Origin: Mya arenaria
Lineage: Eukaryota > Mollusca > Bivalvia > Myida > Myidae
Length of the DNA: 64,000 nucleotides
NCBI RefSeq assembly: GCF_026914265.1
Contig: NC_069135.1
Span: 8,883,001 to 8,947,000, forward strand
Direction: 5' to 3'
This document shows positions 34,045 through 64,000 of the stretch, in pieces (position 1 is the stretch's first letter; each line of letters begins with the position of its first letter). The notes under the pieces were generated by a model. It was not told the DNA's origin and searched no databases. It saw nothing but the letters and a program-made list of their open reading frames with translations. A program made the translations under genes and the position numbers.

Positions 34045-34247
34045 ATGGCTTCAAACGTTGCCATAGTGCTGGCGACTCTGGTGCTATACCAAACATGTGG
34101 TAACTATCGTTAATACATCAGTTCATTTAACGTTATCTTACAAAATATAAGGTTGTTAGTATGTGAGTGAACATATGATGTGAGCATCTGTCTTGTCTCT
34201 TGCAGTGGAGGGAACATACCTACCTTCCTCAACGGGTACTAGCGGCG
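34045..34247 (+). CDS. Signal peptide and linker exons
   Basis: Exon 34045-34099 starts ACC ATG G and encodes MASNVAIVLATLVLYQTC, a good secretion signal. Exon 34206-34247 adds VEGTYLPSSTGTSG. Both end in phase 1. The start is supported by the TATA box upstream and the lack of another in-frame Met before a hydrophobic stretch. Confidence 0.8.
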
Positions 34248-37200
34248 GTGAGTGATACTTTTATTCTATTTCAGACACATAAAATGTTAGCACTAAACGA
34301 ATATATAACAAGAAGTTTGGTTTCACTTAACATAACACATCAGTGCGTATACAGTAGCGTATATGATAAACGTTCTACAGAAAATAGAAGAGCCCAAAAG
34401 AGTCTTTCTATTATCTGTTAACGTTATAAATATGTACCATCATATAAAGTAGATGCACTTATTTGTAACCAATATAAGAATCGGGTCTTCGGAGCCAATG
34501 ACGTCAAAATTTAATTAACCAACTTTTCAAATTAAGTTAACTATTCCTGGATCGGTCAGTAGGGACCACGACTTACTGTTCACTAGGTGTAATTTTTCGT
34601 AGGTTCGAACATCACCATACCATCGATTTTTCTTAATTGAATTTACTTAAAAAATCATGTAGATGTAACCTGGTCAGTCAACAAAATATCAATGACCAAA
34701 ATTTATATTGAATATAAATCACGATGATTCTAATTGGTTCACAAAAAATCCCTAAAGTAATTGATAGAAGATAATTCAGGGAATATCTTAATGAATAAGA
34801 ATGGGGGGGGGGGGGGGGGGGGGGCGAGCTAGCCAAGAATTTTACCTAATATGTCCTTAATCTCTTATGTAGGATTATGTGTCCAGCAAGCGGGGAACTA
34901 AATGGTAAAATCATGTCTGTTAACGTGTAAATCTACCAATCTTAGTGATAAACTGATAGGTGTTTTCATTGGGTAGGACTTTAGGGAAATGATCTTATGC
35001 AAAGCGGAAGGTACAGCATCCTTAAAACAATTTCAATATGTGTTAACTAGCTGAACATCCTTTTTCGACTTTGTCTTTAACCCAATAACTTTATTTCAAG
35101 TTAATCCAAATAATACATGGATAAGTTCGATAAATTGTAGTCTGATAACTCGCCAAGTCGACATTAAACAAGTCGGCAAGACTACATGATCACATCGTCA
35201 CTCTAGACTGTTTTATTATAAACTGAATATTTTTACTTTATTTTTAATCGAAAAAAGTTAAACTTGTTATGAAGCAATCGGCTTTGTCAAATCGAAAAAT
35301 TCGGCATTCCTGTAAAACAAACAAGTCGACATAAAGTCACATCATTTTGACAACTAATTGTGATATAACATGTGAAATCTACATAAAACAAGTCAACAAA
35401 TGTCACGAGAACAACAATATATATATATTAAATTCGCTTTCATAAGTTAATTGCCTGATCAACAATAATCACGAAAAATAACATTTAATCAGGATCACTA
35501 TTTAGAATTTTCATTCACAATGGTCATGTCATTTTCATGTGCAAATGAGTCTTGTTTCCTACAGACTCTAATGCGGGTTATTGGGAGATGTGGGGCCGTT
35601 GGTCCGACTGTCCTGTATCTTGCGGGGGAGGCTACAGATTCCGGAAACGCACATGCATATACCCGGAACCCAACAACCCTGGGAATGCTTGTACTGGGAC
35701 CGCACTTGACATGCTTGAGTGTAACACCGATGCATGTCCTGGTAAGTCAGGAACTCGGCTCGGGGATTCGTGCAATTTTACTATAGTATATTTTACTTAA
35801 GTTCGAATATTCTGACCACCTTGCACCAGCCTTTTTTGGATTTGATATTACAAAAATGCAAATTAAAATATGGTTCGTTTCATTATTTGATATAGTTTCT
35901 TAATGTTCTAAAATGGCGATCAATGCCACAATAATTAATGTGTATTAATGACGAAACTTTATTTTCTTTATAGGTAGTGGCGGCGAAGACAACAGCTCTA
36001 GCGACGGTATGTTGCATTTTATTCAAAGAATCCGTAAATAAACCGCACACAAATTTTAAATGTTTTCTTTTACATAGCATGTGGTACATTTGTTTAACGT
36101 TTACACCAGTAAAGGTTAAGCAATTATCGGCGGTATGATTCGCTAAGTTTGTACTTATACGTTAATTGTAAAGGAAGGTCGGGGGAAGGAGTTTGGCTCT
36201 AACTTCTCGAACGTATTGTTAAGTACTGGAAAACTGAAACTGTATCACACTTTGATTTGAAGAATGCTGTTTTACCTTCATACAGGTACAGTTCTTTAAA
36301 TAAAAACGATACGTGAGAATAAATAATTTGGTGTAATGTCCCTTCAGCAACACGAGTGCTTTGATTATTTTTATTGCATTTTTTCACAATTCAAAACATT
36401 CGTTCACAATTATTTTGCGTTCTTGAGTTTCAACAAAACTTATTCATAATGTATACATACACATATATTCACATAGCGTAGAGCTATATTATAAATATGT
36501 GAATGAGCTTAGTATGGTTTAAGACAAACGTCAATTTTTGCGTAATATAGATCAATGAAAAACACGCATTTCTTCTGGAATAATTACGTATTTTTGTAAA
36601 AAAATACCGAAATTTATACAATGCAAGGTTAGACATACTTTTTTGGCTTCGGGCGATCGATCGATAGCGCTCCCTGACTTTTCGAGGATCGATAAAAGTG
36701 ATCTCCACTCAAAGGTATCTGAGCAGTGAAAGTTGGAGTAAGGTTGTGTGGATTTTTCGACATGCATTGCTGGAAGATGCATACCGTGTAACATTTACCG
36801 TATATGTACGCAGTTTGTTTGCAAAATAAATAATCTCTTGATCCAGGTAAGTTAGTTTTAAATGTAGCGTCGACCACGTCTATTTGCATTTACTCAATCG
36901 ACTATTATGTTTATTATAGCTAATCAGAAAAGTATGTTGCATTTCCTTCCATGATAGAAAAAAAACCTAATATGTTTTATTTCGATATAGCAAAATATTT
37001 TTTTAACTCAGAGTATAATGTTGAACTATGACATGTAATTACAAAATGTAGAATAGTAAATATATCAATCGTTTTAGCTAATGATACTTTTATTTAGGTC
37101 TTGACAAGAGTCCTGAATTGCGGCAAAGACGCTCGATGCAAAATAAATGGGCCACAAAGTTCGGCAGCACGCACAATAAACATGTTTCAAAGTTTGGCAG

Positions 37201-40200
37201 CACGCACAATAAACATGTTTCAAAGTTCGGCAACATGCAAAATAAACATGTTTCAAAGTTCGGCAGTAAGCAAAATAAGCAGGCTCCACAGTACAGCAAC
37301 ATGCAAAATAAGCAGGCTCCACAGTACGGCAGTAAGGAAAATAAACATGTTTCAAAGTACGACAACATGCAAAATAAGCAGGCTCCACAGTACGGCAACA
37401 TGCAAAATAAGCAGGTTCCACAGTATGGCAACATGCAAAATAAGCAGGCTCCACAATACGGCAACATGCAAAATAAGCAGGTTCCACAGTACGGCAACAT
37501 GCAAAATAAGCAGGCTCCACAGTACGGCAACATGCAAAATAAGCAGGCTCCACAATACGGCAACATGCAAAATAAGCAGGCTCCACAATACGGCAACATG
37601 CAAAATAAGCAGGCTCCACAGTACGGCAACATGCAAAATAAGCAGGCTCCACAGTACGGCAACATGCAAAATAAGCAGGCTCCACAATACGGCAACATGC
37701 AAAATAAGCAGGCTCCACAGTACGGCAACATGCAAAATAAGCAGGCTCCACAGTACGGCAACATGCAAAATAAGCAGGGTCCAATATATCCCAGCTGGCA
37801 TCTTCGGCAGTCTGTAAAGGGTAATGATTTTTGAGGATTAGTATAATACAGTTTCATCAAACACTTCGACAATCCTATTTCCAAAATATATTGCGTTATG
37901 TTTCATTTAAAATGGTAAAAAATAGTGAATTTATCTTTGTTTAAAGTCTTCATTCGAAGCAAAATGTTGCCTTCCGACGTAGCATATATAACGCAATTTA
38001 TCACGTGGTATACATGTTAAAACAATGTATATTATTATTATGTTACGTTCGCAGCAATAATAAATGTATATAACGATAAGTTTTAGAAACACATTATATA
38101 AACCTAATTCCTAATGGAAACCTTTCACTGATAAATCGATCCATGCAATTACTTAAGTTTATAATGCACATTATATCTACTTAGAACTGAAGATTATTAT
38201 GGAGTTAGTATTTTCTAAGAATAATTTATCTCGAAACGTGAAACAGTTTCTGCCACACCGTAAATTAATGTTTCCGGTGATTCATCTATTAATTACAATA
38301 CTAATGCATTGAAACTTAAACAGTCGTAAATTATTCTACCATTTTCAGGAAGTCAAAATGGTCATTCTTTTGGAGCAAGCGATGGTAAAGACGGTCACGG
38401 CGGCTCGAGCGAAAGTACGTTTTTACGCCAAATAACTTCTTAAAATTGATGCCCTATCTATTTTGATAACCTAAAACGATTAAAATTGACATGGGAACTC
38501 ATAGATAGTAACAGTATTATATTGCGTTGGTCACCATCATAGTGAAAACTGAGGTTCGGACTGTAGATGGTAATCATTTGCAGAATGAGGCTACTTCCTG
38601 TATAGATATATAGCTGTTGACCATTTAATTGACTGCAAGTAAAATCGAAGTATTCATCCGTTTCCGCTAACTGTAAGATTCTAAATGGAATAATTTATTT
38701 TGCAATCCTTTTAAGTAATATATGAATTACAACGTCATGGAATTTAACAATAATTAATTTTGTTATATATAATTTAAACAAAAATTTAATATCTGATATT
38801 GAGATCGATACTACATTCTTTGCTTAAACTTGCTGAATAAAATAATTCAGGAAGTCGAAACGGTCACTCTTTGAGAACAAGCGATGATAAGGACGGTTAC
38901 CGCCGCTCAAGCGATGGTGGTAAGTATTTACTTAATTCAACCACTCGTGTGAAAAAAAATTCTGTTTGATTATTGACGATGTATAGAAATTAAAAACATG
39001 GAAACTCTTGATTCGTGGTAGACTTTAATAATTTTGATGTCTTTGAATGGATATATGTTAACAAAATGAATATGTTAGAATTATACCTACAACAATATTG
39101 TAATTACTAGTTCCTTGTACGTTCGATATAAACTGAACTAAATTAAAAACACAACATTGAATTAGTCTAACTCTGTAAATATTTATAAAGGTAAAACAAA
39201 AATTGAATATAATCATCATGTTCATGAAGTCAAAATGGTGAATGATACCACCATTTTCAGGTAATCAAATCGGTAATTCCGCTGGAACAAGTGATCACAA
39301 AGACTATAAAGGTGGCCCACACGATAGTAATAGTCTATGTACAGTTACTGAAACAGCTTCCAAACACATTTTCCTTCTTGATACTTTAAAGCACTTAAAC
39401 CTCCGATTTCAATGAAATCATTAATTTCAAGAAATCAAAACGGTAGATAAATATTTATATGAAAAACTACAGTAACAATCTCAGTAGCCGCAAGTTTAAA
39501 CATTAACCCCGTTTAATGGCACGGGGTAAACGCCAAAGAGAAAGAACACAATGAAAGAATTAAAGACGTAAAGACTGTACGGATGATTAAGTGATAGTGA
39601 ATGTTTATGATATGTAAAACGAATAGAAATAATAACGTTTCTTTCATGCTTTACGATGAAATATGGGGTTTTAACAGCGAAATAACAACAGTGAAAATAT
39701 CAGTTTGATATTTTCACTGCAAAATAAGGAGTGAAAATATCAACTTTCAGAACTACTTTTAAATTCCTTTGTTGTTACATGTACTTGCCTTGATCAAAAC
39801 AGAACACTGGTCTTCAGTAAATTATGTCAAAAAATGTTAACAAAAAATAAAGAAATATTTTATAAATTTTAATAAATATATAATTGGAAATTAACAACTT
39901 ACCGTTTATTACCGGTTATCCCGTTTATCAAACATTTGACTGATCTTTGAAGCTGAATATGTTCGAACATTTGCTTTCATACCAAACAATTTACAAACAA
40001 AAACAACTGTTCGAACATAAATAAAATCATATATCATCGTTCAAATTTATTTTGAACTGTTAACCGTTGTAGTACGTAAAATGAGCTTCCTGGAGAATTC
40101 ACACAACAATTTACAGATAGATCCGATATTTTTTTACCCCACCCACACCTCAAAATGTGTCAACAAACTAGCGTGGCATTTACTCTTTATCTGGAAAACA

Positions 40201-43200
40201 AACATTTTAAAGCGAAACAGACAGGTCTCTGACAGTAAAATGACTGAATGTTTATTAACTTACTATAAAAACACACGTACATGCAGTCTTAAACTAAGAA
40301 GAATGGGTAAAATCCAATGAGTATCCACATTTGTTTTGCTAACACATTTGACCTTCCAAATTTTCATTCTTTAAATAGCGGCGTAGTTAATTGGTTATGT
40401 ATTCATGCCCATCTTAAAACAAAAAGGGTTTTCATTATTTTTTGGAACATATGTGCACTAATAATACTTCATTGTTAACTGTTCATAAAGCTTTGCAATA
40501 AAAAACGAGCGAATATTAAACTATAAGAATGAATGGCAGAGAACTATTTCTCAGCAAACCGAAAGTAGAAAAGTTGACAGCTATAATTATGCATGAGGGG
40601 CGCCCCACGGGTAGCGGCGTAAAGCCAACCCTTTTCAAAAAAGGGGGTAATTCAGAAATAAATAAAAAACAAATAAAACTCCGAAAATAATCATAAAAGA
40701 AACAGAAAATTTGTTTATTTCAGTGTAAGATCGTATTTTTATTTCACTCGTGATCATAAATAAAATACATTTTCACTCGTGGCTTCGCCACTCGTGAAAA
40801 TATGTTTTTCTATGACACTCGTGAAATAAAATACGATCTTACACTGAAATAAACAAATATCCTCTATTTCTTTTTTCTTTTTTGAATATGTAGCTTTCGA
40901 GTATTTATAAAGAATAACTAAAGGATATCATCATTTCCAGGAAGTCACAAAAGTCATTCAATGGGTAAAAGCGATGATAAAGACCATAACGGCGGCTCAA
41001 GTGATCGTAAGTATTAACGTAAATCCCTCAATATCGAACTACTGGAATATAAGTATCATTTACCCTTGTGCGAAGAAGATCGAATACTCCGATCGGAGGG
41101 CCCGTGCGGTTGCCGATAACTGAGATTGCCGAGGGTCATTCCCGCATACATGTGAATTATAATTTTCTTGCTTTCCTAAAACGTACAATTGCAATAACAG
41201 TATATGTTGTAAATGCTGTGTTTATTTAATCCACCAATGACGCCACGACGCGCAGCAATTAGAATCAATATTGTCGTCAAATAGTTCCAAAGTAAAATTG
41301 CCCTTTTTTATGTAAAATACTTGTGGTATCATAAATAACATAAATTTGTCTTTATTTGATAGTGCCGTTCCGAATCGGCAAACTATTAGACGTGTTGGGT
41401 TAAGACATAATTATAAAACAGATGATGCACGTTAGTTGGCTTCCCGAGGGTGGGGACACAGTATATTTATATACCTGGTAAAACACTGAAACACGTGTCT
41501 TCTATGCAAGACAATATTGCCAGCATTTGACAATTTACGATGAATTTAATATAAAGAAACTTAAGTGAATAAACTTACTAATTTCACGAAGTGGAAATGG
41601 TCATTCATTGGGATCAAACGATAATAAAAACTATAACGGCTGCTCAAGCGCTAATGAATATTTACCTAGTAAAAACAAAAGACATACTTTATTTCTCAAC
41701 GAGCGTATCCCGTGTTTGATAAATTAAAGATGTATTAAGGCCACACCAAATTAATGTTTTGTTCCTCGGATTTTTGCCAAAAAAAATTGGAGCGAGCGAG
41801 CGAAAAAAAAAATAAAAAAAAAGTTTGTCAGTTTTTATAAAAACCGAAGCGAGCGAAGAGCGAAAAATATATTTTTCCTTATATTCAATATAAATAAGAA
41901 AGATTGTTCAAAATAATTGCCCTTAAACCCATTTTAATGCCATCTTGAACTGAACCTCTAATGGACATTGGGAAAATGTCTGAATACATACTATTTATTC
42001 ATCCGTGTTTAGTACAAACATTATATGGATAAATCTAATTTCTTATATAATTAAAACGTACTTTAATATGACGATCATTCATAATAATAAATAACCCTGC
42101 TTTTAGTAAAAAGTTTGAAACGACTTATATAAATCTACCTGAATCAGTTTAACATAATATGCAACTGTTTTTAGACATAACTTAGGATTGATTTTGGATT
42201 TGTAAAAAATTATCACTTACACAGGCATCATCAAACATCAGACTCCATATAACATAAGGCTAAATTTTGTTTTTATTATCACAGGAAATGCAATGACATG
42301 TGTTTATTAAAACAAAAAGAACAAGGGTATTTTTCAGAGTACATTTTTTAGTTATTTAGATGTTTTTACGCACCAACCAATTGTATATGCCCCCAAATCC
42401 CCACAAGTCCAGAATAGCGGGGACTTTGACTTTTGGTCTCTCAAAACCGGGGTAAAATACCCGACCTGCAGGGACACACTGCTGGTAAAATCCCTGCCAA
42501 ATGGGCCCGCAACCCCGAATACCTATGTTAGGCCCATTCTCAACTATTTTCAATATGAAGACAAAACCACATTCACTAGGCACTGCGGTGCCACCTGAAA
42601 GGTAAAAACACAGCCCATTGCCTCTGCTGTCCCCGGTATACCCCTGGAACAAGGGCGAGGGGTGGGCGGGGCAGTCTTTACAAGAGCATTACAATCCCGG
42701 ATTATGCTGCAAATAAAAACAAAATATAAGGTGATAAACTTAAGCTTACTTATGTTGAGGTATATCCAGACCAGTGTTTATATCGCTATTTGTGAAAAGA
42801 TATGTATTAAAAACTGTTGTTTTGTCAGAATTTGATCAAAAATGAGCTTGATACATCAATTTGGACCAAACAATGACTCATATTCCAGTTAAGTTGACCT
42901 GTCATTTTCGGCATCGTCGTAACGAGGTAAAATTTTGATCCCTTCTTTTATGACTTGAATAAAATAGTACTAAGTTGATCATTCCGATTTCCATTCAAAA
43001 CGAGTCACTAATTACGCAATATAATCGCTACCAGTCTTAGATACACATGCTTTATTGCATAATGATTGCTTTAAATAATGATCCTTTAGTGCATGAGACG
43101 ATCAACAATGACGTCAAGCATGCTCAAAACATATTTATTGTCAAAAATAAGATTTAATTTCCAAACTTCGAGCCACATTGTTTATACCGGAAGCCGCCAT

Positions 43201-46200
43201 TTTGATTGAATTAATTGAAACCCATGCTAAACCGATCGATATACAGTATAAAAACACTACGCATCGGTAACTTCCCTTTACAAAAAACACGAAAACTAGC
43301 GTAGAAAAATTATACTTGATTATTTTTAACCTTTAAATAAATTATTACCTGAAAAAATCTGCTTGGGGATCAAAATGGAGGTGCGGGCGCACAAAAAAAA
43401 TAATTTTTTTTTTTTTTACATTTTCAAAAAAATAGGAGCGGTAAATCCGCGGAACGAAATATCAATTTGGTGTGGCCTAAAGATATCAAAACAATCAATT
43501 AATAAAATGACTTATTTCAGGAAGTCAAAATGGTCACTCTGTTGAAACAAGCGACGAAAAAGATCACTACGGCGGCACAATTGATAGTAAGTAAACTGTT
43601 TCAATTAATTTCCAATTACCAACTGCAAAAGCCGAATTTTCGCTCTTCTGGAAGTAACATTTGTAAAAAGTTTCATTGTATTTCCACATTAAAATAAGCA
43701 CATGAAATCACCATTTTCAGAAAGACGAAACAGTCACTCCGTTGGAAAAAGCGGCGCCAAAGAAAACAACGGCGGCTCTAGAAATAATAGTTTGTAATTT
43801 TTTTCTTTTTACTTCTATTAACCAACTGCTTAAGCCGAGTTTCCCTCTACGAGAAACATTCGTTCTTGAAATTTCAATGAAGTTCCACATTAAAAAGGCG
43901 CATGAAATCACCATTTTCAGAAAGTCGAAACAGTCACTCCGTTGGAAGAAGCGGCGACAAAGATAACAACGGCGACTCTAGTAAAAGTAGTATGTAAATT
44001 ATTTCTCTTTACTTCTAGTAACAAACTGCTTACGCCGAGTTTCCCTCTACATGAGATATTTATTCTTGATAATTTCGATGAAATTCAACCTAAAGATAAA
44101 AACATGAAATTACCATTTTCAGGAAGTCGAAACAGTTACTCCGTTGGAACAAGCGGTGACTTTAGTAAAAGTAGTATGTAAATTATTTCCTTTTATTTCT
44201 ATTAAGCAACTGTTTATGCTGAATTTACCTCTACGATATATATTCATTCTTGATAATTACGATAAAGTTCCACATTGAAATAAGAGCATGAAATCACCAT
44301 TTTCAGGAAGACGAAACAGTCACTCCGTTGGAAGAAGCGGCGACAAAGATAACAACGGCGACTCTAGTAAAAGTAGTATGTACATTCTTTTCTTTTACTT
44401 CTATTAACCAACTGTTTAAGCCGAGTTTCTTCCTACGAGAATTATTCCATATTGATAATTTTAATGAAGTTCCATATTAAAATAAGAGCATGAAATTACC
44501 ATTTTAAGGAAGTCGAAACAGTCACTCCGTTGAAACAAGCGAAGACAAAGATAACAACGGCGACTATAGTAATAGTAGTATGTAAATTATTTCCTTTTAC
44601 TTCCATAAACCAACTGCTTAAGCCATGTTTCCCTCTACGAGAAACATTCGTTCTTGAAAATATCGATGAAGTTTCACATTAAAAAGGCGCATACAATTAC
44701 CATTTCAGGAAGTCGAACCAGTCACTCCGTTGGAACAAGCGACGACAAAGATTACAACGGCGACTCTAGTAAAAGTAGTATGTTGATTTGTTCCTTTTAC
44801 TTTTATTATGTAATTGCTTATGCCGAATTAACCTTTATGAAATATATTCATTCAAAAGCCAAATCATCAAGCAACTGAAAATATCCATTCTTGTTAATTT
44901 CAATAAATGATTACTATGGCGGCTTAAGTATCAGGTTACACAAATCAATCGATCGATCTTTTGTGGGAAATCCTTTCCACTTCTTTAATTTAGATTTAAG
45001 ATAAACTGAAATAAGTTGATGAATACAATCACTAATTTCATAAAGTCAAAACGATCATTCTTTTTGAACAAGGGATGGTCAAGCGATAGAGAGTATTTCT
45101 ATATCAATCAAAGTCTGGACAATATCGGTCGGAGGTTTAAAATTAGGTAACACGCCTTGAATTAGTGCCCTTTTCTTCAACCAATATATCGCTTAAGGGC
45201 GAGTTACATTGTATGTTGGTTGTTTGTGCTGTGTCGGTGTTAAAAGAGTACGATGTTGAAATGATAGCTGGAAGACTAATTAAAATAAAAGAGCGTTTTC
45301 ATATGTGAAACGAATTTTAAAACAAACTCTGCACAAACGGAATGTTTTTTTCGATCGTCATTATTGTAACACATGAAATGCACATGAATTTAATGTATGT
45401 AATCAAGTGTTTGAAAATTAACAATTAAAATAGTTATAAAGTTATTAAATACTGCATTTGTATTGGGTTAAAAGATTCACGCTTCTAAATTTACGCATAT
45501 TCCTGTATAAGCTTCAGTTATGTATGCACTAAGTACTGCTTCAAATCTGATAATCTGTTGGCTATTGGATAAAAACATTAGCATTTTAGAAAAAAAATCA
45601 TACAAATGATTATATGTTCATTTTTTTCTATTCCAGATTCAAATCACTTCTTGGTGCATACTGACTGGAAGCTAAAAGGATATGAAAAAAGAAGTGAAAC
45701 GAAAATGTGTTTAGATAGAAATATTCTTAAAGTGTTGACTAACATTGACATGTACATAACTATATATGTATTTCCCACATGTGCCGATTTATTGAGCTTT
45801 CCCAACGATAAGTACGTATTGCGCTCTTGTACAAATGTAATTTTAAAGTTATTTATCATGTTTGTTGATCAGAATAAGAGGTTTAAATCAAATTTTGTCA
45901 TTTTGTTTATTTAAAAGGTACCAGTTAAAATACAGCAACTCATAAAGAGTTGTTGTTTTAACAGAACATCTTAACACTCGGTGATGTATTCCCTGTGTAA
46001 TTTAAAAATAACATGGGACAAGAACTGGTTAGGGCTTTCATATTATTTTCAGAGTGTTTCCTAAATAATAGACATCGGCTAACATGATTGGCTGTATACA
46101 GCTCTCCGGATGCGTTTTTTTTGCAAATAAACCTATCGAAGCGTACTCCTTAGTCAGTTAAACAAAATGTTATTCATATTTTAACGTCTCTTCTTTGGCT

Positions 46201-52200: not shown

Positions 52201-55200
52201 CAGTGCCGGCTAGAAATATATAAGTCCCCCCAAAAAGATTTCAGTCATAGTGTCTGTATAGCAAACATAATTAAAATATTACTTTTAAATTAAACATAAA
52301 CGAATACTTTAGAATGAAAAAAACAAAAAACATTTTAAACGAAACACTAATTTAAATAAATATACACTGTGTATGCAACGAGCTGTGGAATAACTTTAAG
52401 TGCTTTTTCCAGTCGTAAAGCATTCATATTGGGCTAAATAACCTACAATAAATATAAGGAATATACCTTATAAGAAATTATGGCAGTATTAACTTTATAG
52501 AAATACTCCTTAAATATTACTTTTTTTCTGTTTGAAATACAGAGAAATAATTCCTAATTCAGTAATTTAAAAAAATACCTCAATATCCGATACAATATTG
52601 AGCGTGAAAAAAGCTATTATGAAAAATAAACAAAATGTCCATTTACATCATAACTATCAGATATATAATACAATTTTAGAAAGCCGGTCTGTCTCTCAAA
52701 AAGGAATTATAGGCCCTTTTGCGCCCTTATCTTTTTTATCAAAACATTTTTTAATGCAAATGATATATTTGATATACATAACAAATGTTTAGCTATGTGA
52801 ATCCATTTGAATAAAACAAACTATATAGATTAGTGTCCAATTAGTAGCATTGTAGCGCATACAAGCGGGGAACCAACTCTGTGTTCTCGAGCGTTCTGTG
52901 TGCTTACATATTTTATATTATTTCTCTATTACAGAGAAAGACGGATATCCGCTTTGTCGGTATTTTTCGACAAATTCGATAAAAACATATTTGAGCACTA
53001 TTTCTCAAAATAATGTAAGATTAACCTCTATTCAAAAGGGAGGCAGGTATCCGGATCATTGGGATAGGTATCGACACGTTCGACAGTTCGACGGCCGGCC
53101 CGGAAGACGAGCTGCAAGATGTTGTCTCGGATCCACAGGAGGATAACCTCTTCATGACAGAAAACTTCGAGATTGCTCTCATGAAGTTAAAAAGCGATGT
53201 CTTTACCACCATCTGCCACGGTAAGTCCCACCTGCGACTCATTTTTTGCATTTTATAATTTCCTGCTTATTAAAAGCTAAACAGAGTAGCGGGTAACATA
53301 CCACCGAATCTTCAAGGGCTCTCAATATTTTTGATGAAATTACCCTTAAATCGGCTAGACACCAGATGGTTAAAAATTGGCAAATACATTATTTTCAAAC
53401 AACATGCCTAGAATTTTCAATAAGTTTTTTTTACGTATGAGGCCGATGATTAAAAGGAAATTTTGCCAGTTTGCAAATAGAGCTTAATGGTCTCCCGTTT
53501 TACAGTGCTTGTATTTAGCTTGTGAAAGTCACGTGATTAGTATAGATGCATATACCGACGCTAGGTTTGATTAACTAGGATTTATGTGGTAGAGGTTACA
53601 CACCACCATTGTTATTCCCTATATAATTCAATGTAAAATTATAATTTTCAGACAACATTTAAAGGCATTTCGAGCGAATGCAGGCTATGATAACCACATA
53701 TATTCTTAAAGTACAAGCTTTAAATTACCTTTTAAGCCAATAAAAAAGGGAAGTCAAGTTATTCCTAAGAAAAATCACTCCACTTGAAAAACAAACTCTA
53801 AAAATTGCACCGTCCGCCATGACAGATCTTCCAAAATGACCTTTCAACTATAGGGCAGCGGTTTATGCTTTAATCTCTACTCTAAATGATAAATCAAGCA
53901 AGAATAGATACTTAAGGTATAAAAGTTTCAGGAATAATGAGAGTTTTGATTTACAGTGTATTGAGCATGTGAAAACATGTCTATCAATCATAAGAACTTT
54001 TTTTTATTGAGAATTTTCCACACAACGGAAGTACATATGACGTAATGGTGACGTTATTCCTAGACAAGCACAGTTATTTTTGAAGTGGAAAACACTACGA
54101 AATATGGTTAGTGTAGTAAGCGATGTGATACATCAGTAGGTAAGATTTAATGTGGTGTCACATTTTATATCAAGTTTTGGACCATTTTCTTTTATCTTGG
54201 ACAAGTATCATCTGGTATCAAGTCCTTTTAATGCCGTATTTTTCTGCTCAAATGCAGAACTTTGCATTCTCGTTATTCGAGTAATCCAGTAAACCAAATA
54301 TATTGAGATATTGAAATTAACTGGAACGTTCCCGAAACTGAAAAGGACCAACTATTTAATGATTATATGAAATGACCATTAATCTTACTCACTGATAGGT
54401 TCATTAACACGAATGTTAAATTTTGATGCCAGGTTACCTAAAATAATTTTGGTATTATTTTGATTGATGTTTTCCAACGTGTAAATTAATGAATAAATGA
54501 CTTAAAGTACATTATTTTGAATGTCTTTGCTGTACGTGTATTTTTGTTTTACTTTATTTCAGGTCTAACGTAAAATGATATATTTGGCAATATTTAACTC
54601 TAGAAGACAAACAAACTTGATTGCTATATGATGTTCGGCATTTCTTTTACATTTTCTTTTGTCTGCATACAGACATCTTTCAAATGATACCAAAAATATA
54701 TTGAGATACCACGCATTTGAAATTATCGATTTCCTAGTATTCATTTTTAATAGAATATAATCACCGGTAGCATTTATACAATGGTATTCTGTCGTTTCTA
54801 TTTCAGATCCACCGATTCCGCCACCGAAACGTAAGTTGAGATTTACACATTGCTTCTTGCACTTATTCGTGTTGTATTTAACATAAATTTCTAAAAAGCA
54901 AAATACTTCACAATTAGATCAATCTTCAAGGTTTAATATCTATGTTTAAAAAATGTTCGTCTTTTGACCTATAGCCCAAGTTTGACGCTAAGTTTGAAAG
55001 TCAGAATTTAGTGTCAATCAACTAAAGGTGACCTTTTTATCTAGTGAGCCGATGCGGTCTGCAAGTTTACAACCGAACAAAGGAGATCTGTTGCTTGTGG
55101 GTGGTGAACCCTCTGGTAGCCGGAAGTCGAACACAGTGTTGTGGCGTAACTGCCATAGACCCAGAGAAGTCGGTGTGCTGCAAGAGCGGCACCCCGCATA

Positions 55201-58200
55201 ACAAGTTCGCTGGCGATTATACCAAGTGCTGCTGTTACACCGCTTATGATCAGCGTTCCAGCGTCTGCTGTTCTGGAGTGGTGAGTGACTACATGGATTT
55301 TGACTGAATAATGTTTTTCGTTGTATTTGTTTCAATTTAAATCTACTTGAACTATGTACTTAATATACCTAAGCGTTTGATAGACATCTTCGAAAATGTA
55401 TATACCGTTTGAACGACCATGCACAAACATATTTTCATCGAGACATACTCGACGTGAATACCATTTGTAGTCACACCAATATGGCCAATAAAACGAATTT
55501 TTCACAGATTTTATCAATCTGCAAGTGTGATAAAGATGATTTCCCTAAAGTATGTATATTTTCCCAAATAAAGTCTCTGACGTCAATTCTATTTTGGCCA
55601 CATGCCGCATGCAACGGAAATGACGTCATGTCCTGTTTCGCGGGCGGGGTTGTTTGCACAAAATCTATTTTTTGCCGAAGAATATCGATTATTGCTAATG
55701 TATATTACCTAATATCGATTGTCATGTTACCACGTTAATACCAATGATGAAAGAGGATATATACCATTCATAAAATGATAACAGTCATCGTCATAGAATT
55801 GACATCATTTGCAGTAAACAAGTTTTCATTTATGTTGTGATTTCCTACTTGGTGTTAACAGAATTAATGTTTTTTAGGTTCAACCAAAGGTCGGACAATA
55901 CACACACTGTTGTGGAAATTCTAGCTATGATCCTCTCAACCAGTTTTGCTGTGGTGGTAAGTATAATATTTATGTATGACAAGTTCATTGTCGTGTGGGC
56001 CCTTGTCTTGTGCTATTTAACATGGTTGATTTTTGAATATTTGACCACTTGGTGCGTCCTTGCAGTAACTATGTTGTGTTGTGACAATCTGGTCACGTTC
56101 AATACATGTTAGACTTTGATCCGTTCGCAAAAAACAGCCCACTGTTTTGGCTGATGTCTCGCCCTGTAGTTGATTAGTTAAGGTTTCGATAAAGCACAAT
56201 TTAAAATAAAAATGGCTGTAATGTTTTTTTTACAATAGGAATGCTGTACCCGGAACCATTTCACCCAAACTGTTATGATTGTAAATACGGTCATCCAAAG
56301 CCACGATTCGACGAGAATGAGAAAGTGTGTTGTCGCGGAAAAATGTTCGACGCTATAGCTGGAAATGTGACATGCTGCTGTGATGGCAAGCCTTTCGATC
56401 CAAACAACAAAATATGCTGCAATGATTTTCTTCAATCAAGGGCGAGTGGTCCGACGTCGCAGTGCTGTGCAAATAAAAACATGGACCCAGATAACAGTTT
56501 ATGCTGCGATGGAGTTATACAACCGATCACGGACAGAGATTACACCCGGTGTTGCGGTGATCAAAGTTATATGACGAACAAAGAGCTATGTTGTGACGAT
56601 AAGACCATTATTCCAAAGACAGACAGAGATGACAGTTGCTGCTGTGCAAATAAATCCATCGACCCAAGGAAACATATTTGTTGTAACGATAATAAGCAGA
56701 CCCTATACATGCGGGGGACGCAATGCTGTGATACTGAAAGTTTCGACTCTACAACCCATCTTTGCTGTGATGGTAAAATACAGAAACTTGAAGGCGGCTT
56801 TCTTTATACAATGTGTTGTGGAAAAAACAGTTACAACGCAAAAACACATATGTGCTGCGAAGGTAATTTGAGGAAGAAGACTGAAGAATCGGACAATGCG
56901 TGTTGTGGGGATAATGAAACATTTGATACCAAAACATCTGTTTGTTGTGAGGGTAAACGTGGTCAATATTACCCGCAAAGTACACGGTGCTGTGCAGATG
57001 AAAGCTACGATTATACGACTGCTGTTTGCTGCGGGGGTAAAGTGTACAGTCAGTCAATTGGCACAGATTTGCGGTGTTGCGAGGACAAACCTTATGATTT
57101 AAATAGTAAACTATGCTGTGATGGTACTCGTGTCGTTAAGAAAACAGTCGACAATGACAACTGCTGTTGTGGAGACAAGACCTTCAATACAAATGATGGC
57201 ATTTGCTGCGACAATAAACCTCAGCCCCTCAAAGGATCAAACACACAATGCTGTGGAACAAAAAGTTACAACGCCGACACATTTATCTGTTGTGGGGATA
57301 AAGTTATCAGCATTGAGCAACCGGGCGATAACTGGTGTTGTGGGAAAAAGACAATGAATACTAAGACACACATTTGCTGCAGCGGACAGCCGTCGCCCAT
57401 TCTTGGAGACAACACCCGATGTTGTAAAGACGAAAGCTACAACGCGGACACACACTTGTGTTGCGAGGAAAAGGTGCGAGAGAAACGTAATGGAAAGCCT
57501 AACGATAATGGTTGCTGTGGTAAAACGACGATCAACACAAATGAAGAAATCTGCTGTAAGGGCGAGCCTTCGGCTGTTGACAATATAGAATTTGGGCAAT
57601 GTTGTGACGTGTCTGCTTTTGACATGCGTTATGAATTATGTTGTGACAAGGAAATTGTAACTAAAGCCAGTGCAACGGATGACTGCTGTTGTGGAGACAC
57701 CACAATGACCACTGCCAACCAGATTTGTTGTGATGGCGTTCCGCAAGAAAAGAAAAATGGCCATTTTACAAAATGTTGCAAAGAAAAAAGTTATGACTCG
57801 ATATCAGAAATTTGCTGTGACGATATGTCAATTAAACCGAAAACGAACGAAAATGATGATTGTTGCTGTGGTAATAAATCTATTAATACAGAAACGCAAA
57901 TTTGTTGCATTGGAGAAGTACGGGACAGAAAAGGAGCAGGAAAGAAATGCAAGTGCTGTATGCATGAAAGCTACAACCCTGCAAATCAGATTTGCTGTGA
58001 CGGAAGTGAATTGCGAGACAAAGAAAACTCTGATGATAACTGTTGTTGTGGTAGTTCAACGATGAACTCTGAATCACATATCTGTTGCAATGGCGTACCA
58101 CAGGAATTGTTTGAAGGGTTAACTTTATGCTGCGGCATGAAAAGCTACGACGAAAGTCTCTACCTTTGTTGCAATTCAATGCTTGTAGCTAAAATAGAGT

Positions 58201-61200
58201 CAAAGGATGATGTGTGCTGTGGAAATAAAACTATAAATTCTAAACGCCAATTCTGCTGTGAAGGAACGGTTTGTAAGAACTTTGGAGACCACACTGATTG
58301 CTGCGAAGATCAAAGTTACGATAGACAAAAATCCATGTGCTGTAATGAGGAGATAACCAAGAAGAAAAATGACGATGACGATTGCTGTTGTGGTGATACA
58401 ACAATGAATGTTGCGACGCAAGTTTGCTGTGATGGGGTGCCACAGGACATTGTTGGCTCCGAGACGATGTGTTGTGGTAAGAAGAGCTTTAATCCAGAAG
58501 ATACTCTCTGTTGTGATGGTGATAAGGTACCGAAGCGCAACAGCTCGGACAACTGTTGTTGCGGAAAGAAGCCAATGAATTCAAAAACAGAAATATGTTG
58601 CGACATGGAGGTACAGGAAGCCTACCTTGGGCAATTTAAAACAAAGTGCTGCGGGAAAATAAGCTATAATCCTATAAAGCAGATATGTTGTGACAACGGG
58701 GTGCGTGATAAAGACGAAGATGAGGACGATTGTTGCTGTGGAAGCGGAACTTTCGATTCAAGGACTGACATTTGCTGTCAAGGGACAACAAAGCAGCCAT
58801 TGTATACTGGTCCAACAAAGTGTTGTGGAACTACGAGCTTTGATGAAAACAATTTCCTTTGTTGTATCGAAGAGCTAACTATGAAAGCAGATGTCGATGA
58901 CAACTGTTGCTGTGGAAATACAACCATCAACACCCAGACTGAATTTTGCTGTTCTGGGGTAAGCTGTACAAAGTATGATGATTATACTGACTGTTGTGGA
59001 GCTGCTAGCTATGACACAAGAACACATGTGTGCTGCAAAAACCAGGAGATAAGGCCAATGTCAAAACCTGGTGATGACTGCTGTTGCGGGCAGGAAACAT
59101 CAAATTCAAGATTAGATATATGCTGTGACGAAACTTCTCAACCATTGATTAATGGTAATTATACCAAATGTTGCGGTTCAAAGTCGTATGATTCTGTTGT
59201 GGCCATTTGTTGCGATGAATTGATTAGAAATAAACGACCAAATAAGCAAGAAGACGACTGTTGTTGTGGGGAAACAACAATGAACACACAAACGGAAATG
59301 TGCTGTAATGGAGTTCCACAGCCCCTTGAAGACGGTTCAAATACTAAATGTTGCCAGTTTGTGAGTTATGACGAAAACGACTTCCTTTGTTGTGATGGCA
59401 TTAATCTTACCCCAACCGCAGAGTCAGGTGATAATGCTTGTTGTGGCAAAACTACCATGGATACAAGCTCAGAACTCTGTTGTGAAGGTACACCTTGCAA
59501 TAAGGTCGCTGGAGACAAAACACAATGTTGCAGCTCGGTGAGTTACGATCCAAAGAAACACATGTGTTGTGACCTAATGTTGTTTGACAAAACAAATGAT
59601 ATCGACGACTGTTGTTGCGGAAATAAAACATTTTACACAAAGTCGCAACTTTGCTGTGAGGGTATGCCTGTTGATAAGCCTCCCCGTGCTGGAGAGTTCA
59701 GCTCATGTTGCGCGAATGTGGCTTATGATACACGTTCAAAACTTTGCTGTGATGGAGAAACAAGAGATAAAGAAACCAAAGATGATTCTTGTTGTGGTTC
59801 AACTACCATGAATGCAAAACAAAGGATTTGTTGTGATGGTGTATCATGCAAACGAACTGCTGGAGACAAAACGAAATGTTGTGCACAGTCCAGCTATAAT
59901 CCTGATACGGAAATGTGCTGTGACGAAACTGTTAGAATTAAGAGAAATACCAGTGATGACTGCTGCTGTGGAGATACGACAATGACCGTCGATGAAGAGA
60001 TATGTTGTCATGCTAAGCCCCAACCAGCACCTGGAAACGATTTCTTCAGATGTTGTGGAAGTGTAAGCTATAAACCTAAAACGCATGTGTGTTGTGAAGA
60101 TGATATGCCTATTTCAAAGGAAAAGCCTAATCACAACTGGTGTTGTGGATGTTGCACAACCTACGACACCGAAACGGAGGTATGCTGTAACGACGTTCCA
60201 CAGCCAAAGACAGGACCAAACACTAAGTGCTGTGGTGATGTTAGCTTCGAAAGTACATCGGAAATATGTTGTGACCAAGCTGTGCGCAACAAGAAAAGTG
60301 ATAAAGATGACTGTTGCTGTGGAAACGTAACAATTAATACACAATTAGAGATATGTTGTGAAGGTGTGCCTCAACCTGGTGGCCAGAATGACGATTGTTG
60401 TGGCATAGGGAGCTACAACAAAAACACGCACATGTGTTGTAATGGGAAAAGGATTTTGAAACGAAACCCATCCGACAACTGTTGTTGTGGAGAAACAACA
60501 ATACATACAGATACAGAAATATGTTGCGATGGAACACCGCAGGAGAAACCAAATGGAGATAAATCCAAATGCTGCGTTGATGTTGCATTCGATTCAGAAA
60601 CACAGGTTTGTTGTGAAAATCTGATTTATAACAAAGACAATCCCAAAGATAACTGGTGCTGTGGTAACAAAACTATCGATACAAAGAAAGAAATATGTTG
60701 CAACGATGAAACGTGTGATGCAGTTGCAAAAAATAAAACACTTTGTTGTAAGACGGAGAGTTTTGATCCTGATAAAGAAATTTGCTGCGATGGGGAATAT
60801 CTGCGATCAAAGAATCGGCCGGACGATAATTGTTGTTGTGGTGATTTAACAATTAAGACTCCAGATGAAATATGCTGCGCAGGAAAAAGGGCCATATCTT
60901 ATGGACCAGAAACAGAATGTTGCGGAGAAAAAAGCTTTGATCCAAATACACATTTGTGTTGCGATGGTAAAATCATTGAGAAAACTGACGCATCGGACGA
61001 CTGCTGCTGTAAAGACAAATCATTTGATACAACCATGCAAATCTGCTGTGGCGATAAGGTGCGTGATCTTAAAACAGGCGGTAAGGAGTTCACAACCTGT
61101 TGCGGAGATAAGAGTATGAGCACCAAGACGCATTTGTGTTGTGATAATGAGATGGTAATAAAACGTGACGAAAGTGACGACTGCTGCTGTGGTGATACAA

Positions 61201-64000
61201 CTATGGACGCATCTGAGGAGGTTTGTTGTCAAGGAACGCCGCAACCTAGATATCAACCCGTCACAAAATGTTGCGACCACATCAGTTATAATCCAAAAAC
61301 GCACATGTGTTGCCATGATAAAGTAACAGCAAAATCTGATGAATCTGATAATGCCTGTTGTGGTAACACAACAATAAACACAGAAAACGAAGTGTGTTGT
61401 ATTGGAAATCCTCAGCCAAAGACGGAGGATGCTACTAAGTGTTGTTTAGATGTAAGCTACAATTCAAACAGTGAAATATGTTGTGACGATGGTGTAAGAA
61501 CGAAAAACAGTACAGATGACACTTGTTGCTGTGGAAAAGACTTTACGTTTAACCCCGTGGTTGAAGTTTGTTGTCAGGGTATGGTGCCAGCTAAGAGGAA
61601 GGGTGGTGAGGCGTGCAAATGTTGTGGTTACGAAAGTTATGACCCAGCAGACGACATATGTTGCAATGAGGCTATCGTTGCAAAACGAGACGAATCGGAT
61701 GACTGTTGCTGCGGCGACACATCCATTAATTCGCGCAACGAAATTTGCTGTTTAGGAAATCCAAGAGTACGAAAGGGCGGTGACAGGACAGATTGTTGCT
61801 TAACCGAAAGTTTCGACATGCTAAACGAAATGTGTTGTGATGGCGATGTCATATCGAAAAAAGATTCCCAGGATGATGGATGCTGCGGAAATACAACGTT
61901 TGACGCAAATAAAGAACTATGTTGTGACGGTAGACCACAACTTTTTGATAAAAAGAGCGTATGGAAATGCTGTGGAAAGAACTCGTATGATATGGATAAT
62001 TCTGTGTGCTGTGACGACGAGGAATTGCGACAATCAAGAAATAATGGGGACGATTGCTGCTGTGGAAATACAACAATGAATACTGCCAATGAGGTGTGTT
62101 GCATTGATACGCCGCAGACGAGCTTTGGTCCTATGACTAAATGTTGTATGCGGGAAAGTTATGATCCTCTAGAGGAAATATGCTGTGACGGAAATAGCCT
62201 TCGTGAAAAGAGGAACTCTTCTGATAACTGTTGTTGTGGATCAACGACCATGAACACTAAAGATGAAATATGTTGTGAGGGTGTGCCTGTACCTAGATAT
62301 GGCACAAATACTCAATGTTGCCATAATGAGAGCTATGATGCGGATAATTACTTGTGTTGTGAATTCCATACTGAAATGCTGAGTCTTGTCAGCACAATAA
62401 AGAAAAGAAACCAAAACGATGATTGCTGTTGCGGTTATACAACTATGAACACACAGGATGATATTTGCTGTGACAGCATTCCACGAAGCCGTGTCGATGA
62501 ATACACATCCTGTTGTGGAAATGAAAGCTTTTCTATGTCGAGCGCCATTTGTTGTGATGGAGAAGTTAGACAAAAGCGATATATACCTGATGACAACTGT
62601 TGTTGTGGAAACACAACCATGAATGCGCAGACCGAAATATGTTGTGATGGAATGCCACAATCGTCTTATGATGAATATACGAGGTGCTGCCTTCAACAAA
62701 GCTTCGATCCTCGCACACAAATATGTTGTGAAAATAGAGTAATTAACAAAACAGCTGAAGACGATAACTGCTGTTGTGGAGAGAAATCGATCAACACCCG
62801 TACAGAAATTTGTTGTGACGGCGTGGTTGTTCAAAATGCAGTTGGTGGTGATAAAGCAAGATGTTGTGGACGAGTTAGTTATAACTCTGACAATGCACTC
62901 TGTTGTAACATGACAGTCATTATAAAAGATGGAGAAAATGACGATTGCTGCTGTGGTAGCACAACTATGAATGCAGAAAACGAGGTATGCTGTGATGGCG
63001 TTTCTCCGCAACCTAAATTTGATGGTAGTACATTATGCTGTAATCAAGAAAGCTTCAACCCAAAGACAACTTTATGTTGTTCAGAAAGTCTTGTTAAAAA
63101 AAATGACGAAGATGATGACTCCTGTTGCGGTTCTGCACCAATGAACTCGGATTCAAATATCTGCTGTAACGGGGTTGTTTGTGACGGAAATATAAAGTCT
63201 CATGATTGTTGTGGCGAACAATCATATAACATTGAATCAGAAATATGTTGTTTCGATGAAAACATAAGGACAATCGCGGTATCTGGTGATAATTGTTGTT
63301 GTGGAAATACAACAATAAACACAGTGGACCAGATTTGCTGTGAAGGGGTGCCACAGGATAAGGTTGCAGATGATGCTACAAAATGTTGCGGAAAAGAAAG
63401 CTACGACCCAGACAGCGGGATATGCTGTGACAGAAATGTTGTTCCTAAACGGAACCGCATAGATAATTGGTGTTGTGGAAATACAACATTTGATACGACG
63501 AAAGAGGTTTGTTGCATGGATACACCACAACAGTCATACGGGGATGAAACAAAGTGTTGCGTACGAGAAAGCTACAATTCCAAGCATTATATCTGTTGTG
63601 ACGGTGACAGTATTCGTAAAAAGGAAAATGACGAAGATAATTGTTGCTGTGGTGATATAACAATTAATACTGAAGAGGATGTTTGTTGTGACGGCCATAG
63701 ACGTCCAAAGAAAGGCAAATCTACAAAATGTTGTCATCATGAAAGCTACGCTGAAAGTGAACACGTTTGCTGCCGAGACGGAACACTAAATGACCGTAAG
63801 AATAAAGACGATGATTGTTGTTGCGGAAACACCACAATGAATGCAAACGAACACATTTGTTGCGATGAAAACGTACAGGAATTGGTTGGTGGACCGTACA
63901 CATCATGCTGCGGAAAGCATTGCTTTGATACTCGGTCACATATATGCTGTCACGATGAAATTCGGCCAAAAGCTAAGGTTCCAGATGACAATTGTTGTTG
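34045..64000 (+). CDS. Giant secreted TSP1-VWA-galaxin-like matrix protein, 5' part (34 exons, open at edge)
   Basis: All 34 exons join in one frame, almost all through phase 1 introns, giving at least 3,679 residues with no stop before the window ends. Order: signal peptide; short linker; thrombospondin type 1 domain; Gln/Asn-rich 11-residue repeats; 17 small Gly/Ser-rich exons; Cys/Ser linkers; one galaxin-like module; VWA domain; proline linker; galaxin-like modules; then a giant exon of galaxin-like repeats. Galaxin is a Cys-Cys-rich protein of the coral skeleton, and relatives occur in molluscs. TSP1 and VWA are extracellular adhesion modules. I infer a secreted, disulfide-cross-linked structural protein (shell, periostracum, byssus or mucus). 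Exact function is not shown by sequence. Exons are detailed in the following entries. Confidence 0.85.
34805..34824 (+). repeat. Poly-G run of about 20 bases
   Basis: About 20 consecutive G residues lie in the intron before the TSP1 exon. They are prone to assembly length error and potentially G-quadruplex forming. Confidence 0.9.
35565..35741 (+). CDS. Thrombospondin type 1 domain exon
   Basis: One phase 1-1 exon encodes a full TSP1 repeat. It has YWEMWGRWSDCPVSCGGG with the layered Trp residues, FRKRTC, and the later cysteines in NACTG, LECNT and ACPG. TSP1 domains bind matrix glycosaminoglycans and proteins outside the cell. Confidence 0.92.
35974..37820 (+). CDS. Gln/Asn-rich 11-residue repeat exon, with a small Ser/Gly exon
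   Basis: Exon 35974-36006 encodes GSGGEDNSSSD. Exon 37098-37820 (723 bp, phase 1-1) encodes about 20 tandem copies of an 11-residue unit, consensus NMQNKQAPQYG. The first few are variants (STHNKHVSKFG), and it ends PIYPSWHLRQSVKG. The 33-bp unit is a multiple of 3, so the minus strand and other plus frames are also open. This frame was chosen because both splice junctions match phase 1 of the neighbours and the product is low-complexity and hydrophilic. Tyr, Gln and Lys richness would suit cross-linking. Confidence 0.8.
37130..37795 (+). repeat. Coding minisatellite, 33-bp unit, about 20 copies
   Basis: Nearly perfect copies of GGCAACATGCAAAATAAGCA plus GGCTCCACAGTAC lie inside the exon at 37098-37820. 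The last dozen are nearly identical, with C/T differences in GCT/GTT and CAG/CAA. This suggests recent expansion or gene conversion. Confidence 0.95.
38349..47696 (+). CDS. Array of 17 duplicated small phase 1-1 Gly/Ser-rich exons
   Basis: Exons: 38349-38414, 38851-38919, 39261-39326, 40941-41006, 43521-43586, 43721-43789, 43921-43989, 44123-44173, 44307-44375, 44509-44577, 44709-44777, 46257-46310, 46659-46712, 46908-46961, 47159-47212, 47387-47440 and 47634-47696. Each encodes 17-23 residues on the plan (G/R)S-x-NGHS-x-GTSDDKD-x-NGGSSD. All begin after TTTCAG-type acceptors and are 3n long in phase 1-1, so any copy can be gained, lost or skipped without a frame change. Exons 43721-44777 repeat at about 200-bp spacing and 46659-47634 at about 225-250 bp with alike introns, showing tandem duplication of exon plus intron. 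One exon, 44123-44173, carries an 18-bp in-frame deletion. Donor quality varies. Confidence 0.85.
38415..40940. other. Introns around repeated exons, 38.4-40.9 kb
   Basis: These are AT-rich introns between the first four repeated exons. The intron at 39327-40940 carries a 149-bp fold-back element near its 3' end; no other gene was seen. Confidence 0.6.
40710..40858. mobile_element. Near-perfect fold-back element, 149 bp
   Basis: ATTTGTTTATTTCAGTGTAA at the left is mirrored by TTACACTGAAATAAACAAAT at the right. Internal CACTCGTG words are also mirrored around the centre GGCTTCGCC near 40785. This is a MITE-like or foldback element sitting just upstream of exon 40941. Confidence 0.9.
41588..41653 (+). 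pseudogene. Decayed copy of the small repeated exon
   Basis: GAAGTGGAAATGGTCATTCA and the following 46 bp match the repeated exon over its full 66-bp length. The acceptor CAG has become CAC and the donor GT has become AT, so it should no longer be spliced in. Confidence 0.8.
41737..43479. mobile_element. Element of about 1.74 kb with terminal inverted repeats
   Basis: Left end AAGGCCACACCAAATTAATG, then TTTTGTTCCTCGGATTT, is matched in inverse at the right end by AAATCCGCGGAACGAAATAT, then CAATTTGGTGTGGCCT. The inverted repeats are about 35-40 bp, followed by A/T-rich and GCGAGCG-rich subterminal sequence. No transposase frame was seen, so it is non-autonomous. It splits the array of repeated exons between 41653 and 43521. 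Confidence 0.8.
42368..42690 (-). repeat. Dispersed repeat, copy 2, nested in the 1.74-kb element
   Basis: It is related to 8125-8335 (shared GCGGGGACTTTGACTTTTGG and GACACACTGCTGGTAAAA). The minus strand keeps an open frame with YQQCVPAG and ERPKVKVPA. This may be part of the carrier element rather than a separate insertion. Confidence 0.65.
44778..46256. other. Intron with one decayed repeated exon
   Basis: AT-rich sequence. An open frame at 45606-45914 with an AG upstream (TTCCAG at about 45635) was considered as an exon but has no family resemblance and no fitting donor. Confidence 0.5.
45041..45092 (+). pseudogene. Decayed copy of the small repeated exon
   Basis: AAAGTCAAAACGATCATTCT and TCAAGCGATAGA match the repeated exon family. 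The acceptor reads TTTCAT instead of TTTCAG, an internal block is missing, and no donor follows. Confidence 0.7.
46460..46497 (+). pseudogene. Frame-breaking shortened copy of the small repeated exon
   Basis: The acceptor and first 33 bp match the family, but a deletion removes about 16 bp before the donor. The exon is 38 bp, not a multiple of 3, so its inclusion would shift the frame. It is probably skipped. Confidence 0.7.
47924..48533 (+). CDS. Three tiny Ser/Gly/Cys linker exons
   Basis: Exons 47924-47953 (GDSSCTDCNM), 48321-48350 (SQSMNSGSES) and 48510-48533 (SGESGSKS) are 30, 30 and 24 bp, all phase 1-1. The GTGAGT donor of the first was preferred over an overlapping GTGTGA because the latter gives a stop in the next exon. 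A further open stretch at about 48780 (SGNSLSSLFSYASG) follows an acceptor but has no donor in the right phase, so it is left out. Confidence 0.65.
47966..48105. repeat. Degenerate short tandem repeat, GATCCCCATATTTCCC-like
   Basis: About nine irregular copies of a unit of roughly 15-18 bp (GATCCCCATATTTCCC) lie directly after the small exon 47924-47953. Confidence 0.85.
49054..49239 (+). CDS. Galaxin-like Cys-Cys module before the VWA domain
   Basis: One 186-bp phase 1-1 exon encodes CGQDPITEVCCNG, KTCCCGDQGTFDPNYYICCDG and DTDCCS. Paired and tripled cysteines at about 15-residue intervals with FDPN-x-x-ICCDG match the galaxin repeat. It shows that galaxin-like modules flank the VWA domain on both sides. 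Confidence 0.85.
49475..53220 (+). CDS. von Willebrand factor A domain (4 exons)
   Basis: Exons 49475-49582, 50545-50726, 50948-51051 and 53039-53220 (phases 1-1, 1-0, 0-2, 2-1) form one complete VWA domain. Metal-ion site residues are present: ADIVFIADQSSSI (DxSxS), the Thr in VGGGTSTAPAI and the Asp in IIILITDGRSDN. The fold continues GIRIIGIGID and ends ELQDVVSDPQEDNLF. VWA domains mediate adhesion in collagen VI, matrilins and shell-matrix proteins. The last acceptor was placed at AAAAG|GGAGGC because the stronger-looking GGCAG six bases on leads to TAG. Confidence 0.9.
51052..53038. other. Intron inside the VWA domain, no gene seen
   Basis: AT-rich sequence of about 2 kb with no convincing exon or recognisable repeat. 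Confidence 0.6.
53221..54806. other. Intron, no gene seen
   Basis: AT-rich sequence. A block at about 53350-53650 (AGACACCAGATGGTTAAAAA onward) faintly resembles interspersed repeats of other molluscs, but this could not be verified. Confidence 0.5.
54807..54830 (+). CDS. 24-bp proline linker exon
   Basis: A micro-exon in phase 1-1 encodes DPPIPPPK between the VWA domain and the second block of galaxin-like modules. It follows TTTCAG and precedes GTAAGT, both strong sites. Confidence 0.75.
55045..55956 (+). CDS. Galaxin-like modules, two exons
   Basis: Exon 55045-55280 (phase 1-0) encodes SRCGLQVYN, KEICC, TQCCG, PEKSVCCKSG, TKCCCYTAYD and SSVCCSG. Exon 55878-55956 (phase 0-1) encodes QYTHCCGNSSYDPLNQFCCG. 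Alternating TKCC/THCC and SYDP...CC words are the galaxin-like pattern continued in the giant exon. Confidence 0.88.
56239..64000 (+). CDS. Giant single exon of galaxin-like repeats (at least 7.76 kb, open at window edge)
   Basis: From the TACAATAG acceptor at 56238 the frame, with codons starting at 56241, is open to 64000. I translated every line and found no stop. This gives about 2,587 codons in one exon. It contains about 44 units of about 58 residues (spacing about 176 bp). A typical unit reads DDNCCCGNTTMNT, TEICCDGVPQ, TKCCG...SYDP, THICCDG, then a charged KK-rich spacer. CC or CCC pairs therefore recur about every 12-18 residues. Units vary in sequence but hardly in length. Many Lys, Asp and Asn residues surround the cysteines. 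There is no transmembrane segment. Every long minus-strand open frame over this region is a shadow. The exon's end is beyond the window. Confidence 0.93.

Follow-up and report, generated by a model that had tools for sequence, protein, structure and literature searches.

The forward strand from position 34045 to the edge of the window (the whole 64,000-nucleotide stretch of clam DNA analysed here) appears to hold one bivalve gene encoding a very large secreted matrix protein, the likeliest use of which is in the matrix of the shell or periostracum; judged from the sequence, we put the probability of this reading at roughly 0.6. The + strand model has 35 exons, is open at the window edge and runs for 3,699 codons. 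It reads in the order signal peptide, TSP1, twenty copies of an 11-residue Q/N/K/Y repeat, 17 short Ser/Gly exons, a galaxin-like unit, VWA and a galaxin run. All the modules named in the original prediction were found where it had placed them and on the same strand, TSP1, VWA and galaxin by Pfam and the 33-bp minisatellite with its 20 units. The claim of a single frame from the signal peptide to the window edge was also borne out, there being no stop in the joined codons, with the correction that phase 1 applies to 31 of the 34 introns. The other three follow 50726 (phase 0) and 51051 (phase 2), both inside the VWA, and 55280 (phase 0), inside the first galaxin units. The positions of the features are given in Table 1.

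Table 1. Features of the proposed gene, with coordinates in the window (all on the + strand)
Feature	Position	Strand	Basis or remark
TATA box, TATAAAA	33878..33884	+	167 bases before the start codon; putative promoter role
Exon 1, signal peptide MASNVAIVLATLVLYQTC, start context CACCATGG	34045..34099	+	frame and hydropathy scan
Exon 2, short linker	34206..34247	+	best splice score of 34.0-49.3 kb
TSP1 exon, phase 1-1	35565..35741	+	PF00090, E 8.7e-11
Small Ser/Gly/Asp exon	35974..36006	+	splice score and frame
Q/N/K/Y repeat exon; furin-like RQRR/S at residues 111-115	37098..37820	+	sequence
20 tandem 33-bp units; NMQNKQAPQYG in 11 of 20; HVSKFG-type units near front	37133..37792	+	coding minisatellite
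11 Ser/Gly/Asn exons SG1-SG11, 51-69 nt, each phase 1-1	38349..44777	+	tandem 202-bp units 43515-44853
Decayed Ser/Gly copy, no AG acceptor or GT donor at the usual places	41588..41654	+	sequence
Decayed, shortened Ser/Gly copy	45042..45089	+	sequence
6 further Ser/Gly exons SG12, SG14-SG18, 54-63 nt	46257..47696	+	tandem 251-bp units 46550-47667
Truncated Ser/Gly copy, 38 nt	46460..46497	+	inclusion breaks frame
Three small linker exons	47924-47953, 48321-48350, 48510-48533	+	all phase 1-1 in splice scan of 47.7-49.0 kb
Possible linker exon, GC donor	48780..48839	+	omission keeps frame
Galaxin-like unit before VWA	49054..49239	+	PF24748 in joined piece; collinear with homologues
VWA over 4 exons	49475-49582, 50545-50726, 50948-51051, 53039-53220	+	PF00092, E 1.7e-36 (joined exons)
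Proline-rich hinge exon	54807..54830	+	gene model
First galaxin units, exons 55045-55280 and 55878-55956	55045..55956	+	gene model, Pfam
Giant galaxin exon, open at window edge	56239..64000	+	2,587 aa, 177 cysteine clusters
43 complete super-repeats, 56-65 aa, four cysteine clusters each	56463..63992	+	repeat parsing

Every acceptor is AG, and GT is the donor in all but one of the 34 introns; the exception, after 48839, is GC. The first exons of the model were picked by eye. A splice scan independent of the model was run with hand-entered splice matrices; each of the seven top-scoring exons that it proposed in 34.0-49.3 kb is phase 1-1 and open and belongs to the model. At a score of 12 or more, 8 of the 16 candidates in this region are phase 1-1 and open; the figure is 1 of 7 for its minus strand and 1 of 28 for the + strand at 12.5-33.8 kb. 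The corresponding values at a score of at least 10 are 12/28, 4/16 and 2/43; at a score of at least 8 they are 17/42, 8/35 and 5/60, ie the contrast with the opposite strand fades. Of 758 random AG...GT pairs of 50-70 nt, 67 are phase 1-1 and open. Because most of the exons are symmetrical, frame agreement is weak evidence for the use of any single one of them.

Between 33.8 and 56.3 kb the + strand offers nine ATG starts that open a hydrophobic stretch and lead to a phase-1 donor. Comparable hydrophobic starts are common: the minus strand has 28 over this interval, and the + strand has 17 at 1-33.8 kb. Only the start at 34045 combines, among the nine, the CACCATGG context with a TATA box less than 200 bases away at a promoter-like distance. 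The starts at 50382, 55867, 55927 and 55972 are about as hydrophobic, and all lie 3' of the galaxin unit at 49054. A weak hydrophobic start at 46205-46310 reads in frame into SG12, and is a possible alternative first exon. Elsewhere in the window, immunoglobulin I-set domains at 14.8-28.2 kb mark one or more upstream genes on the + strand, and Pfam gave nothing for two long ORFs at 9530-11899. Reverse-transcriptase pieces in separate frames are present on the minus strand at 23740-25223, perhaps from a broken LINE-like element. Minisatellites occur at 806-3478, 22125-22693, 26215-26884, 31853-32349 and 47968-48069, with units of about 41, 60, 44, 30 and 10-40 bases, respectively.

The TSP1 match is above the Pfam cut-off (42.3 bits compared to 21.6, joined exons scanned). 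In the exon that follows the small Ser/Gly/Asp exon, the nine repeat units that differ from the commonest peptide represent seven variants. The Q/N stretch lies behind the RQRR/S site and is basic (pI 10.2); its 229 residues include 16 Tyr, 28 Lys and 47 Gln. From its sequence this repeat looks young.

The Ser/Gly region comprises 17 intact exons and three decayed copies, and has no match to a Pfam family. Several of these exons have only ordinary splice scores, and their use is putative. Among 11 of the 17 copies every exon gap is a multiple of three, which none of the 52 intron gaps is; the gaps were counted pairwise, and those in the exons may stem from two or three events. Over whole introns, which give the preferred estimate, divergence among SG6-SG11 is modestly lower in the exons (0.11) than in the introns (0.16). 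A larger contrast obtained with fixed flanks (0.10 against 0.25-0.27) was set aside for the whole-intron figures. Among SG14-SG18 exon and intron divergence are alike, at 0.14 each. Nonsynonymous differences exceed synonymous ones among SG6-SG11 (43721-44777; pN 0.12, pS 0.037), and the opposite is seen among SG14-SG18 (pN 0.155, pS 0.41), both from small numbers.

One VWA domain lies inside the window, and the gene continues beyond 64000. Its motifs DQSSS, GGGTST and LITDG, at residues 821, 886 and 919, follow the DxSxS, T, D pattern of the metal site, and we take them to be the kept metal-binding residues.

The giant exon scores 1,614 bits against the Galaxin_repeat family PF24748 (cut-off 28), in 26 stretches. 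When cysteine clusters (CC or CCC) no more than 60 residues apart are joined, the galaxin run after the VWA contains at least 184 of them and is open at the window edge. Within the giant exon the clusters are 13-18 residues apart in 173 of 176 cases, and the super-repeats show the galaxin pattern of repeats of about 30 residues with two dicysteines. The super-repeats were cut at cysteine clusters, which fills the first cysteine column by construction; the columns beyond it are filled in 42 or 43 of the 43. Their mean identity is 0.37-0.41 (about 39%) at each spacing from one to seven units. Since it is flat across these spacings, the array looks old, with no sign of recent local duplication. 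The idea that expandable segments sit beside fixed modules thus suits the Q/N minisatellite and the tandem Ser/Gly exons, but not the galaxin array, which lacks such a signal. The giant exon is acidic, with a net charge of -159 and a pI of 4.6, and has 27 N-glycosylation sequons. AlphaFold2 predicted a confident all-beta chain of hairpins for the galaxin repeat (pLDDT 96), and the models had no significant match among solved structures. A likeness to adenovirus and reovirus fibres was not significant (best E 0.32, 1.5 and 2.5 in separate searches) and was dropped. The strongest of the viral rows, at E 0.057, belonged to an uncharacterised protein of a giant virus.

Homologue searches of about 5.8 billion proteins, in part of which only candidates sharing most words were scored, gave 38 rows (32, 3 and 3). 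The galaxin repeat is present in five of these, all with VWA and all from clams (four species of Neoheterodontei). The 33 rows with no galaxin repeat, mostly collagen VI, VII and XII chains carrying VWA, were set aside as shared-domain matches. The relatives are uncharacterised proteins of Mercenaria (P0001, 1,995 aa), Mya (P0002, 1,653 aa), Mactra (P0003, 1,631 aa) and Dreissena (P0004, 1,643 aa), with a fifth, P0033, of 5,282 aa from Mactra antiquata. The galaxin-VWA-galaxin piece of the model is collinear with P0001-P0004 from end to end over 363-367 residues, at a best identity of 36-40% in each, and it is 35% identical to P0033. The join between the galaxin unit, the VWA and the array is therefore supported by homologues. 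No TSP1, Q/N or Ser/Gly region was found in the five relatives (by Pfam for P0001-P0004, precomputed Pfam for P0033, and BLASTP and composition for all five), and the searches as a whole returned no relative of the Q/N or Ser/Gly parts.

Each of the five relatives has 31 cysteine clusters in its last galaxin run; the run here has at least 184 and is about six times longer. P0001-P0004 have three or four VWA domains each, against the single one inside the window. P0033 is similar in that VWA alternates with galaxin units; it differs in matching Pfam F5/8C, in giving ten VWA alignments and in carrying a long charged tail after the last galaxin run, and no TSP1 was found in it. Against the start of the relatives' last run, the start of our array gave 427 in P0001, 405 in P0002 and 418 in P0003, compared to 397, 377 and 403 for the best later position in the array; it was not favoured in P0004 (375 against 377) or P0033 (332 against 377). 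Since the array start fits the last-run start best in P0001-P0003, the VWA here may correspond to the relatives' last VWA, and the array that follows would be the part that expanded.

The shell or periostracum is our best guess for the site of use because both VWA and galaxin are recorded in mollusc shells. One study counts VWA in a small set of domains that mollusc shells cannot do without, and in a clam it lists galaxins with the shell effectors (PMC9768464). A galaxin-like protein of a freshwater mussel is reported from RNAi to have a role in the prismatic and nacreous layers (PMC10045328), and a snail shell proteome is reported to include a galaxin homologue (PMC9365450). In such a protein the galaxin array would form a disulfide-hardened, negatively charged beta rod, serving as a framework of the matrix and offering a surface to calcium carbonate or to basic partners. 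Two observations on coral galaxin, from the part of the paper available, count against this picture: the protein is reported not to bind calcium, and certain dicysteines may pair internally to give small loops instead of cross-links (PMC2726143). The VWA and TSP1 modules would bind other matrix components. The repeat rich in Lys, Gln and Tyr could, from its composition, be a cross-linking arm of the transglutaminase or tyrosinase type, which cleavage at RQRR might free or expose. The Ser/Gly exons would act as springs of adjustable length, as each of them forms a symmetrical phase-1 cassette and can come or go with no damage to the frame.

A single modular secreted gene is supported by the frame, the splice signals, the start with its signal peptide and TATA box, and the galaxin-VWA-galaxin homologues. 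That the TSP1-Q/N-Ser/Gly half joins onto the galaxin-VWA half is suggested by frame and splice signals only, no protein with both halves being found among the five galaxin-VWA relatives. The region could instead be divided into two adjacent genes, one for a TSP1-Q/N-Ser/Gly protein (34-47.7 kb) and one for a galaxin-VWA protein starting before 49 kb. P0002 and P0003 do open with a signal-peptide-like stretch directly followed by galaxin units, and the weak start at 46205 is also in line with such a division. However, no start in 46.3-49.05 kb came out of the scan as both hydrophobic and followed by a phase-1 donor, the four starts that equal 34045 in hydrophobicity are all behind the galaxin unit at 49054, and the linker exons at 47924, 48321 and 48510 read in frame into that unit. 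We consider two genes unlikely.

The protein could also be used elsewhere than in the shell. The Q/N stretch, with its basic charge and its Tyr, Lys and Gln content, presumably resembles mussel adhesive repeats, and might be the adhesive part of a byssal or adhesive gland protein. However, three of the four species with relatives are burrowers, and the literature matches to galaxin with byssus, as far as their text was available, were a biomaterials review and an acidification survey, which makes this use quite improbable. In its length, its acidity, its tandem array and its repeat spacers the protein is closer to the usual structural matrix protein than to one of defence. These features weigh against a role in the mucosa or haemolymph, with VWA and TSP1 attaching to surfaces or microbes and the galaxin part serving as an antimicrobial or an agglutinin, as does the lack of any other Pfam domain in the pieces scanned. 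Such a role would have precedents in the squid protein EsGal1, described as antimicrobial (PMC7853314), and in a mussel gill galaxin said to be modulated after Vibrio exposure (PMC7772429), but we find it very doubtful here.

A more speculative version of the matrix reading, to which we give a low probability, is that one gene specifies a whole composite fibre: an adhesive head, a basic cross-linking arm released by furin, elastic spacers adjustable by splicing, and a galaxin cable of several thousand residues built on a beta-hairpin fold with no solved relative. If this were so, the galaxin repeat would be a disulfide-laddered filament module that animals lengthen as a material, with this clam at the extreme. 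An array of more than 2,600 residues, with regular dicysteine spacing and a confident predicted fold that has no significant solved match, offers a way to test the role of the repeat. The presence of an old array and young, still changing repeats in one gene would allow the rates of change of load-bearing and flexible parts to be compared, and the constant 31 clusters of the five relatives would make the expansion here datable.

Galaxin is a classic skeletal protein, although its structure and mode of action are, to our knowledge, unsettled; we know of no other modules in the coral protein. Coral galaxin is similar to the array described here in its repeats of about 30 residues with two dicysteines, its acidity (pI 4.5), and in being secreted with a dibasic processing site (PMC2726143), and differs in size, with about 300 mature residues compared to more than 2,600 in this array alone. 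Cysrichin, a galaxin-like shell protein of the bivalve Hyriopsis cumingii, also has dicysteine repeats, but it is of 163 aa, with five repeats and a pI of 8.15, and other modules are not mentioned in the available text (PMC10045328). A coral skeletal matrix protein has TSP1 and VWA together, as does our model; it has three VWA domains, successive TSP1 and two F5/8C domains, and galaxin is not mentioned in the portion of the paper available (PMC4890752). The pairing of F5/8C with VWA in P0033 parallels that coral protein. The original prediction that no described protein combines these modules holds for the whole set as far as searched; it fails for the parts, since VWA and galaxin occur together in the five predicted clam proteins and TSP1 and VWA in the coral one (PMC4890752). 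No description of a VWA-galaxin protein was found in the literature searched, which was mostly that outside subscription journals and available in part, and neither the locus names of the relatives nor a dicysteine repeat with galaxin gave a match there. On these sequence comparisons, the galaxin-VWA-galaxin combination is already present in a clam family that we found undescribed, and what is new in the present gene is its front half and its giant array.
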